Below, piece after piece: positions 29,012 to 32,657 of a stretch of 34,083 bases of DNA (its first letter is position 1; the number at the start of each line of letters is the position of its first letter). Where the stretch lies: positions 1-34,083 of the forward strand of contig JABJED010000048.1 of NCBI GenBank assembly GCA_018665025.1. The letters run 5' to 3'. The notes under the pieces were generated by a model, which worked only from the letters and a program-made list of their open reading frames with translations, did no database searches and was not told the DNA's origin. Made by a program: the position numbers and the translations under genes. This stretch comes from Gammaproteobacteria bacterium. Its GTDB lineage: Bacteria > Pseudomonadota > Gammaproteobacteria > Pseudomonadales > Azotimanducaceae.

Positions 29012-31717
29012 ATGAAGAATAATTATCAGGTGGTGCTGGTCGACGGGTCATCGTACCTTTTTCGAGCATATCATGCACTGCCGCAACTGGTTTCGTCCAA
29101 AGGCCAGGCAACCGGGGCCATCAAGGGTGTTATCAGCATGATTCGTAAGCTGATAGCGGAGTATCCCGACAGTCATATTGCAGTCGTGTTTGATGCAAAG
29201 GGTAAGTCCTTTCGTAACGAGATTTATAAGGATTACAAAGCCAACAGGCCGCCGATGCCGGACGAGCTGCGCAGCCAGATAGAGCCCATCCATAACATTA
29301 TCCGATTGATGGGATTGCCCATTCTGGTTGTTGATCACGTAGAGGCGGATGACGTCATTGGGACACTCGCCACCCAGGCGACGGCAAAGAAAATGGATGT
29401 GCTGGTCTCAACAGGAGACAAGGATATGGCGCAGCTGGTGACGCCCCATGTGACCTTGATCAATACCATGACTGATACCCTGATGGATGGGCCGGGTGTG
29501 GAAGAGAAGTTCGGCGTTCGCGCCGACCAGATCATTGACTACTTGGCGCTGGTGGGTGATACCTCCGATAATATTCCGGGTGTCCCAAAGTGTGGTCCCA
29601 AAACCGCGGTGAAGTGGTTGCAGGCGTTTGAGTCGCTCAACGGAGTGATGTCAAATGCGGAATCGGTGAAAGGTAAAGTTGGCGAGTATCTGCGTGATTC
29701 GCTGGAATTCCTGCCGATGTCTTACGAGCTTGCCACTATCAAAAAAGACCTGGAGCTTGAGTATAGTGTTGATGAGCTTGCGCCCTCAGAGCCAGATTCA
29801 GAGGGGCTACTTGCCATATTTACCGAACTCGAGTTCAGGCCCTGGGTAAATGAGATAAATAGTGATGCATCCGCTGACACCAACGAGAGCCCACTTACGC
29901 CGACCCTTGTGACTGAGTACGAGACTGTATTTGACGAGACTCGGCTGGACATTTGGTTGGAAAAACTGGCAAAGGCTGATGCGTTTGCTTTTGACACTGA
30001 AACAACCTCAATTGATTATATGGAAGCGAAACTGGTCGGATTGTCTTTTTGCTGTGAAGCAGGAAAGGCGGCCTACGTGCCGATGGCACACAACTATGAA
30101 GGTGCACCAGTACAACTGGCGATGGAGCTGGTGCTATCGAAGATACGACTATTACTCGAGAACCCCGAAAAAACCATTATAGGTCAAAATCTTAAGTACG
30201 ATATCAGTGTGATGGCTAGGCACGGCGTGAGCATCAAGGCAAAGGTAATCGACACCATGCTGGAATCCTATGTGCTGAATTCTGTCGCGTCCCGTCACAA
30301 TATGGATGACCTTGCGTTGAACTATCTTGGTCTGTCGACGGTGCATTTTGAGGACATTGCCGGCAAGGGCGCCAAGCAGCTGACGTTTAACCAGATTGAG
30401 CTCGACAAGGCGGGACACTACGCGGCGGAAGACGCTGACATAACGTTCCGGCTGCACCAGGTCTTATGGCCAAGACTTCAGGCCGAAGGCAGATTGGCCT
30501 CGGTCTATCAGGATATTGAAATACCTCTCGTGCCTATTCTGTCGGATGTGGAACGCGGTGGTGTACTGCTGGACGAGGAACAGTTAAAGCTGCAAAGCAG
30601 GGAGTTGGAGAAACGCCTTCATGATCTTGAACAGGAAGCCTATGGCTTGGCAGGGGAAGAATTCAACCTCGGTTCTCCAAAACAATTACAGCAGATATTT
30701 TTTCAAAAACTGGGTTTACCGGTTATCAAAAAGACGCCCAAGGGCCAGCCTTCAACTGCGGAACCAGTGTTACAGGAATTGGCGCTCGACTACCCTTTGC
30801 CCAGGGTGATTATGGAGTATCGCGGGCTGTCCAAGCTCAAATCTACTTATACCGATCAGCTACCTAAACAGATAGCGCAAAGCACGGGCAGGATACATAC
30901 CTCTTATCATCAGGCAGTGACGGCAACCGGGCGACTTTCAAGCTCGGACCCAAACCTGCAGAACATTCCCATCAGGACGCAAGAAGGTCGGCGCGTAAGG
31001 CGGGCTTTTATTGCGCCAGATGGTTACAAGATCATGGCGGCTGACTATTCCCAGATTGAGTTGCGAATTATGGCCCACCTTTCGCAGGACAAGGGCCTGA
31101 TACATGCCTTTAAAAATGGGCTCGATATTCATAAGGCAACAGCGGCTGAAGTGTTTGGGGGGGCGGTATCAGATGTATCTGATGATCACAGGAGAAGTGC
31201 TAAAGCGATTAACTTTGGCTTGATCTACGGCATGTCTGCATTCGGGTTGTCGAGGCAGCTGAATATTTCTCGCGGCGCCGCGCAGGATTATATCGACCTC
31301 TACTTTAATCGTTATCCCGGTGTGAAGGACTACATGGATCGAACGCGTGCTCTAGCAGCGGACCAAGGCTATGTGGAAACCATTTTCGGACGAAGGCTAT
31401 ACCTGCCTGAAATCAGGGCTAGTAACTTTCAGCGTAGACAGGCTGCAGAGCGGACGGCGATTAATGCACCGATGCAGGGAACAGCGGCGGATATTATCAA
31501 GAAGGCTATGATTACTGTGCATGGTTGGCTGGCATCATCGAATCTTGATACGCGTATGACGATGCAGGTCCACGATGAACTGGTCCTGGAAGTGCCTGAA
31601 GGGAATGTCCAGGAGGTAGCAAGCGGTGTTGAAAAGTTGATGTCCGGTGCCGCTGAGCTGTGTATTCCTTTAGTTGTTGAGGCTGGGGTTGGGGACAATT
31701 GGGATGAGGCTCATTAG
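29012..31717 (+). CDS. polA: DNA polymerase I
   Basis: 901 aa with 5'-3' exonuclease, intact 3'-5' exonuclease motif (FDTETTS) and polymerase motifs (DYSQIELRIMAHLS, QVHDELVLEVP). Confidence 0.98.
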   Translation: MKNNYQVVLVDGSSYLFRAYHALPQLVSSKGQATGAIKGVISMIRKLIAEYPDSHIAVVFDAKGKSFRNEIYKDYKANRPPMPDELRSQIEPIHNIIRLMGLPILVVDHVEADDVIGTLATQATAKKMDVLVSTGDKDMAQLVTPHVTLINTMTDTLMDGPGVEEKFGVRADQIIDYLALVGDTSDNIPGVPKCGPKTAVKWLQAFESLNGVMSNAESVKGKVGEYLRDSLEFLPMSYELATIKKDLELEYSVDELAPSEPDSEGLLAIFTELEFRPWVNEINSDASADTNESPLTPTLVTEYETVFDETRLDIWLEKLAKADAFAFDTETTSIDYMEAKLVGLSFCCEAGKAAYVPMAHNYEGAPVQLAMELVLSKIRLLLENPEKTIIGQNLKYDISVMARHGVSIKAKVIDTMLESYVLNSVASRHNMDDLALNYLGLSTVHFEDIAGKGAKQLTFNQIELDKAGHYAAEDADITFRLHQVLWPRLQAEGRLASVYQDIEIPLVPILSDVERGGVLLDEEQLKLQSRELEKRLHDLEQEAYGLAGEEFNLGSPKQLQQIFFQKLGLPVIKKTPKGQPSTAEPVLQELALDYPLPRVIMEYRGLSKLKSTYTDQLPKQIAQSTGRIHTSYHQAVTATGRLSSSDPNLQNIPIRTQEGRRVRRAFIAPDGYKIMAADYSQIELRIMAHLSQDKGLIHAFKNGLDIHKATAAEVFGGAVSDVSDDHRRSAKAINFGLIYGMSAFGLSRQLNISRGAAQDYIDLYFNRYPGVKDYMDRTRALAADQGYVETIFGRRLYLPEIRASNFQRRQAAERTAINAPMQGTAADIIKKAMITVHGWLASSNLDTRMTMQVHDELVLEVPEGNVQEVASGVEKLMSGAAELCIPLVVEAGVGDNWDEAH

Positions 31718-31759
31718 AATGAGCTTTGACGAGCAACCCGCCTTTTACTGGATTTTACC

Positions 31760-31783
31760 AAAAGTGGAGTAACCTCCACTTTT
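31760..31783 (+). terminator. Rho-independent terminator of polA
   Basis: AAAAGTGGAG-TAAC-CTCCACTTTT, 10-bp perfect stem. Confidence 0.8.
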
Positions 31784-31789
31784 GTTGTT

Positions 31790-31817
31790 GAACTTTGCTG
31801 TGATCAGCCGGTCATAA
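31790..31817 (+). promoter_or_regulatory. SigmaE/AlgU-like promoter candidate
   Basis: GAACTT (31790-31795), 16-nt spacer, TCATAA (31812-31817), resembling ECF sigmaE GAACTT-N16-TCnnA promoters; an overlapping weaker sigma70 reading (TTGAAC/CATAAT, 19-bp spacer) is also possible. Confidence 0.55.
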
Positions 31818-31822
31818 TATAC

Positions 31823-31914
31823 GTAAGCAATAGCTTCGGTAATTTTCCCCCCAAAAGAACCGAAGTGCGGGCCCTGGTCACCACTCTCCCCTAGCGTTGA
31901 CCAGGGCCTTTTTT
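31823..31914 (+). ncRNA. Candidate small RNA in the polA-engB interval (Spot 42/ErsA-position sRNA)
   Basis: Hairpin CTTCGGT(31834-31840)/ACCGAAG(31859-31865) with inner TTTT-CCCCCC-AAAA, then 11-bp terminator stem GGCCCTGGTCA/TGACCAGGGCC plus TTTTTT; own promoter-like element, and preceded by the polA terminator. Confidence 0.7.
31870..31914 (+). terminator. Rho-independent terminator of candidate sRNA
   Basis: GGCCCTGGTCA (31870-31880) ... TGACCAGGGCC (31898-31908) TTTTTT; T tract only on the plus-strand side. Confidence 0.88.
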
Positions 31915-31930
31915 ACTTAGGATTCCAGAC

Positions 31931-32518
31931 TTAAGCTTCCAGCCACGCCGTTAGACTTCTTTCAAGTTCTTTAATGCCCAGCTTTTTGGTTGCAGAGAAT
32001 ACCTGGGCCGTTATTTCGGGTGGCAGATGTTTCCGTAGACCCAGCAGGCCGTTCTGTTGGCCGCCTCGTTTCAGCTTGTCGGCCTTGGTTAATAGGATAT
32101 GTAAGGGCAAACCACTGTCGATCGACCATTCAATCATCATTTTGTCGAATTCCTTCAACGGGTGCCGGATATCCATTAGCAGCACCATACCGCGGAGGCT
32201 TTTCCGATCACGCAGATACTCATCCAGATGGCGATGCCAGTGTTCTTTGATCGAAATAGGTACTTTCGCATAACCGTATCCAGGTAAATCTACCAGTTTG
32301 GTCTCGTCATCGAGCGTAAAAAAGTTGATTAACTGCGTTCGACCCGGCGTCTTACTGGTCCTCGCCAGCCCTTTCTGATCGGTCAACGCATTGATAGCAC
32401 TGGATTTACCCGCGTTGGAGCGCCCGCAAAAAGCGATCTCGGCTCCTTCATCCGTGGGACACTGAGACAGCGTTGCGGCGCTGGTGACAAATTTTGCTGT
32501 TTTGAACTTAAAAGACAT
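31931..32518 (-). CDS. engB: Ribosome biogenesis GTP-binding protein EngB/YihA
   Basis: [38 protein letters not shown]; start trimmed from 32572. Confidence 0.96.
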
Positions 32519-32657
32519 TTTTGGCCGTATTATCCCAACTGCAGGTGCTTTGTTATACAATGCGTCCCGCATTCTAGCACCCTCTTCAAATTAGGGGGGT
32601 GCCTGGTAACACCAACTGTTGCCTTCACACAGAAAAGTGGACTTAAGAAGTGACGCT

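Follow-up and report, generated by a model that had tools for sequence, protein, structure and literature searches.

A predicted ErsA-homologous small RNA gene with a sigmaE-type promoter between polA and engB in an uncultured marine gammaproteobacterial clade

The window, by which we mean the whole 34,083-nucleotide stretch of DNA that was analyzed, carries polA on the plus strand and engB on the minus strand, and the spacer between these convergent genes was proposed in an earlier note to encode an envelope-stress sRNA. The features of the locus are as follows:

29012-31717, plus strand: polA (DNA polymerase I), a 901-aa ORF; the upstream neighbor, used as tblastn anchor in relatives
31760-31783, plus strand: hairpin closing polA, AAAAGTGGAG-TAA-CCTCCACTTTT, a weak terminator (fold -15.4 kcal/mol, z -5.8)
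31790-31817, plus strand: sigmaE/AlgU-type promoter, with -35 element GAACTT at 31790-31795 and -10 region GTCATAA at 31811-31817
31823-31914, plus strand: predicted sRNA of about 92 nt, its 5' end placed from the promoter and its extent from the fold and model R1
31834-31865, plus strand: hairpin 1, CUUCGGU/ACCGAAG stem with UUUU-CCCCCC-AAAA loop (fold, conservation and covariation)
31847-31852, plus strand: C-rich loop 1 (CCCCCC), a putative seed, with a C run that is constant across relatives whose stems vary
31870-31914, plus strand: hairpin 2, intrinsic terminator and putative seed hairpin (11-bp stem, T6, compensatory changes)
31884-31892, plus strand: C-rich loop 2 (CUCUCCCCU), a putative seed for G-rich ribosome-binding sites, with UCCCC constant in the loop of relatives
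31931-32572, minus strand: engB/yihA, a 213-aa ORF; the convergent neighbor, with its 3' end 16 nt past the sRNA terminator

Direct reading of 31718-31930 confirmed the stop of polA at 31717 and bore out to the base what the earlier note had described, with its coordinates: the promoter-like motif, both stems, the C-rich loops and the T6 tract. GAACTT and TCATAA (31812-31817) are separated by 16 nt. Stem 1 is formed by CTTCGGT (31834-31840) and ACCGAAG (31859-31865) and encloses TTTT-CCCCCC-AAAA (31843-31856), and stem 2 is formed by GGCCCTGGTCA (31870-31880) and TGACCAGGGCC (31898-31908) around the loop CCACTCTCCCCTAGCGT, which contains CUCUCCCC, and is followed by T6 (31909-31914). The separate hairpin said to close polA (AAAAGTGGAGTAACCTCCACTTTT, approximately 31760-31783) is also there, has a poor T tail and is present in the closest relatives as well. 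The T tract of hairpin 2 lies on the plus strand only; on the minus strand A6 precedes the hairpin and no T run follows it, in agreement with the claim that the tract fits a plus-strand transcript alone and does not terminate engB. A generic terminator scan with a loop limit of at most 8 nt did not list the sRNA terminator. The predicted 93-nt RNA folded with -37.4 kcal/mol (z -4.9), and none of 200 shuffled sequences was as stable.

To compare relatives free of any model, engB was located and the sequence read on to polA, which gave 43 positional spacers of at least 100 nt each. Of the hairpins with a CCCC loop in these spacers, 66 are in polA sense and 2 are antisense, and both of the latter came from a single genome (G049, L053) in which promoter, sRNA and terminator are inverted as a whole between polA and engB. 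Tandem sRNA units were found in G053 (three, L161:1501-2070) and G128 (four, L162:1029-1825), with their own promoters where these were read, and several g23 genomes carry two tandem copies. The inversion, the tandem copies, the sense bias and the promoter indicate a gene and not a set of terminators, and conservation of the whole unit in relatives argues against its being a chance arrangement. By these comparisons, 31790-31914 is a predicted independent sRNA gene.

The earlier note had staked its reading on conservation of the stems and C-loops in sister genomes. This is what the polA-engB spacers of relatives revealed: the C runs of the loops are constant while the letters of the stems vary, with compensatory changes in the terminator stem and, over a wider set of sequences, in both stems. 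Among 26 sequences of the window's family, the terminator stem showed compensatory change at 8 of its 11 pairs and stem 1 was almost invariant; 91.6% of the cells of this alignment pair, compared with 26-54% when the partner was slid. A wider alignment of 82 sequences, which reached in part beyond the order, showed two-sided change at least once at all 18 pairs (7/7 in stem 1, 11/11 in stem 2); it was fitted to the model, so that its pair counts lean towards structure.

Model R1, built from the window's family alone, scored in 58 of the 207 genomes and 12 of the 37 genera of that family. Within the window's genus the sRNA lies between polA and engB in 14 relatives; of the other two, G014 has the sRNA split over two contig ends and G005 is an assembly without engB. 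In nearly all relatives engB is the opposite-strand neighbor. The two genes abut or nearly touch in several other genera of this family, and no sRNA copy was found there, indicating that the sRNA is dispensable. Variation was also seen in the number and form of the copies. The third tandem copy in G053 has diverged loops, and an additional sRNA copy with its own GAACTTT-N-ATCTTA promoter lies on a different contig (L295:306-396; G127:C160:3745-3835). The spacers L095, L100 and L105 suggest that certain genera of the family have three C-loop hairpins, as sX13 does.

A 27-nt frame, GAACTTT-N14-GTC[AT]TA, was identical in 31 of 31 units with divergent flanks, in a search that permitted a variable distance from GAACT to GTC. 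The looser pattern GAACT-N14-17-TC..A occurred on the sense strand of 30 of the 43 spacers and on the other strand of 3, against a shuffle expectation of 0.46. Similarly, 55 of 79 model matches had the promoter, which is not part of the model, within 140 nt upstream (0.49 expected). In the window's 4.79-Mb genome, GAACTTTN14-16GTCNNA was found at 4 sites and its reversed-pattern control at 14, which gives no genome-wide excess of the motif; none of the three other sites clearly precedes a known sigmaE gene. This genome encodes RpoE (294 bits, above the family cut-off), and GAACTAATGTTTGATCGAGTAATCAGA, whose spacing equals that of the sRNA promoter, lies 5' of its own rpoE, as expected for a putatively autoregulated rpoE. 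The conserved sigmaE-type motif of fixed spacing and the encoded RpoE support the envelope-stress (AlgU/sigmaE-type) control that the earlier note had suggested. In family f40 and in Xanthomonadaceae the hairpins are retained with a TATAGT- or TATAGA-like -10 and GAACTT is absent; regulation of the sRNA appears to have changed at least in these two groups.

At curated cut-offs Rfam gave no match in the window, in keeping with the suggestion that the RNA may be unannotated in this lineage. The check with the ErsA model had a divided outcome: in a permissive search RF01719 (Pseudomon-1/ErsA) matched 31800-31922 over its full length with 32.6 bits (E 7.2e-5; 281 bases), but this score is under the gathering cut-off of 50. 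R1 scored 93.1 bits at 31827-31915 in the window's genome, where the next best match had 24.9. Conversely, R1 matched the ErsA of Pseudomonas oryzihabitans with 29.5 bits (E 1.3e-5 in 120 kb; RF01719 there 87 bits) and that of Pseudomonas sp. 102515 with 26.4 bits (82 bits with RF01719 at the same place). The reciprocal profile matches, identical synteny, promoter, covarying stems and conserved C-rich loops support the view that the window RNA is a homologue of ErsA in sequence and structure that was missed by Rfam, a relationship that extends beyond the shared position. For the window alone, the locus is read as an ErsA homologue that had escaped annotation, in a MAG placed from its named close relatives in the uncultured marine K189A/KI89A clade of Gammaproteobacteria.

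Beyond the order, R1 also recognized RNAs known under other names. It scored 37.3 bits on the sX13 gene downstream of polA (L203; RF02232 116.7 bits) and 24.2 bits beside engB in a Burkholderiales MAG, where RF02837 (anti-hemB) gave 79.5 bits. A broad model, R2, had ErsA and one anti-hemB locus among its input sequences, so that independence can be claimed for the R1 results alone. R2 matched 97 of 369 genomes sampled across Gammaproteobacteria, and 26 of the 28 top loci read adjoin polA, engB or both, 18 having a GAAC-type motif within 140 nt upstream. Two Rfam families fell on one place in L119 (anti-hemB and ErsA) and in L196 (sX13 and anti-hemB), and no clan was shown for ErsA, sX13 or anti-hemB in the Rfam output. 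On the window itself, neither RF02232 (cut-off 50) nor RF02837 (cut-off 49.5) gave a match up to E 10. Outside the class, R2 had seven weak matches in 399 genomes sampled from the phylum. The four examined were not at polA, and with matches so few and weak alpha-proteobacterial ar7 RNAs are not claimed as members. A C-loop hairpin pair adjoining neither polA nor engB (R2 51 bits) was seen at L195:1501-1577 (G591:C22:263801-263877), in a genome whose family also includes the sX13-bearing G743.

Compared in this way, the Rfam families ErsA, sX13 and anti-hemB appear to be parts of a single family that spans the class. We somewhat favor the broader interpretation that a single ancient sRNA, mostly sigmaE-driven, already stood at the polA-engB locus when Gamma- and Betaproteobacteria shared an ancestor, that these RNAs and that of the window are its lineage-specific forms, shaped by recurrent loss, tandem amplification, one inversion and changes of promoter, and that Spot 42 may be a replacement in the slot; the alternative to common descent is that C-rich loops arose convergently at this locus. 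The window presents the slot, the C-loop hairpins, covarying stems, terminator and sigmaE-type promoter of the proposed family. A search of open-access papers found none linking ErsA, sX13 and anti-hemB RNAs, and none of the papers searched gave a function for anti-hemB.

The characterized members suggest how the window RNA may work. ErsA requires AlgU, acts with Hfq in repressing algC and is a repressor of oprD as well (PMC8395346), and sX13 acts without Hfq, its C-rich loops repressing mRNAs that carry GGGG near the start codon (PMC3771888). Most likely, the window RNA would do the same under envelope stress. RpoE (AlgU/sigmaE) would recognize GAACTT-N16-TCATAA and direct synthesis of an RNA of about 92 nt, predicted to fold into two hairpins that each expose a C run, the second doubling as terminator. 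The C-rich loops would then pair with G-rich stretches at or near the ribosome-binding sites of trans-encoded mRNAs, probably assisted by Hfq, and the pairing would block translation of these targets, as for sX13 and ErsA. Hfq is encoded in the window's genome (64 bits), but its use cannot be assumed since sX13 works without it. Six sister genomes have 51 sites of the form GGGGAGAG-N2-12-ATG, a mild excess over the 29 of the reversed control. Real starts among them include those of a TonB receptor, an RND-type permease and an ammonium transporter; the six genomes yielded no target gene that is conserved among them. A second conserved terminator hairpin with a C-loop (GCCCTAACACT..CCCTCCCC..AGTGTTAGGGC followed by T8) was seen at L134:1501-1562 (G000:C191:10335-10396, minus strand); it is present in at least 8 related genomes, many with TTTCCATA tracts upstream, lacks the GAACTT motif and is possibly another C-loop sRNA.

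We consider it quite probable that the locus is an independent ErsA-homologue sRNA gene, driven by RpoE under envelope stress and repressing mRNAs through its C-rich loops. A site between convergent genes and a second hairpin that is a good intrinsic terminator would also suit a pair of terminators closing polA and engB with no functional independent RNA. This is very improbable, because polA already has its own hairpin, the T tract is of use to a single strand, and in most relatives the unit follows a promoter whose spacing does not vary; moreover, where the unit is repeated in tandem or inverted, promoter, hairpins and terminator have stayed together, and conservation extends from the stems to the loops. 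Transcription of a real RNA mainly by a housekeeping sigma factor, in which case GAACTT would be a coincidence or a second promoter and stress control would not apply, is unlikely. A CATAAT/TATACG-like -10 does overlap the promoter, and the f40 and sX13 relatives have their TATAGT- or TATAGA-like -10 without GAACTT, but the GAACTT-GTC spacing is invariant in the 31 units despite divergent flanks and a sigma-70 promoter scan listed none at the sRNA locus.

Spot 42 is repressed by CRP and encodes SpfP. The spf gene of E. coli lies in the same slot, between polA and engB, yet a true Spot 42 orthologue under CRP/carbon control is scarcely conceivable here: R1 and R2 reached 14.0 and 18.4 bits on E. 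coli spf and covered its terminator alone, RF00021 (Spot 42) did not match the window up to E 10, the window promoter is of the sigmaE type, and no small ORF like spfP was found in the window RNA. The location given by the earlier note, that of both Spot 42 and ErsA, stands, whereas the likeness to Spot 42 ends with the slot. Repeated C-loop motifs are also found in 6C-type RNAs (RF01066 25.8 bits on the window, below cut-off and not significant), which would suit a role of the C-rich loops mainly as sponge or protein-binding decoy and not in mRNA pairing; we regard this as quite improbable, since both characterized homologues, ErsA and sX13, have mRNAs as their targets (PMC8395346, PMC3771888).

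The sX13 study raised the question of whether similar sRNAs are encoded at polA in further bacteria, and whether their action is alike (PMC3771888). The R2 matches, with nearly all top loci at polA/engB, answer the first part of this question for Gammaproteobacteria. Since loci labeled ErsA, sX13 and anti-hemB were picked up by one model, three lines of work may be treated as one comparable system. The one-family view, which was absent from the open-access papers searched and may be new to specialists, would also explain C-loop RNAs annotated by their neighbor alone, and from it one would expect many uncultured marine bacteria to have such an RNA under envelope-stress control.

Among known systems, 6C RNA (RF01066) is known from Actinobacteria at other loci and resembles the window RNA in its two hairpins with C-rich loops, and Spot 42 (RF00021, E. 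coli) shares with it only the genomic slot. Anti-hemB (RF02837), named after its neighboring gene in Burkholderia, is likewise convergent with engB and has a C-rich loop, with GAACTA-N-GTCTTA upstream in L129; polA was not seen adjoining it in the L129 stretch. The sX13 RNA of Xanthomonadaceae (RF02232) is similar in its location downstream of polA, its stable stems and its apical C-rich loops, but it has three stem-loops and no GAACTT promoter, whereas the window RNA has two stem-loops and this promoter. The window RNA differs from ErsA in length (about 92 vs 132 nt), in the CCCCCC loop that hairpin 1 carries on a CUUCGG stem and in scoring below the Rfam cut-off; it resembles ErsA in the polA-engB slot, the sigmaE/AlgU-type promoter, the two hairpins, the C-rich terminator loop and the reciprocal model matches.
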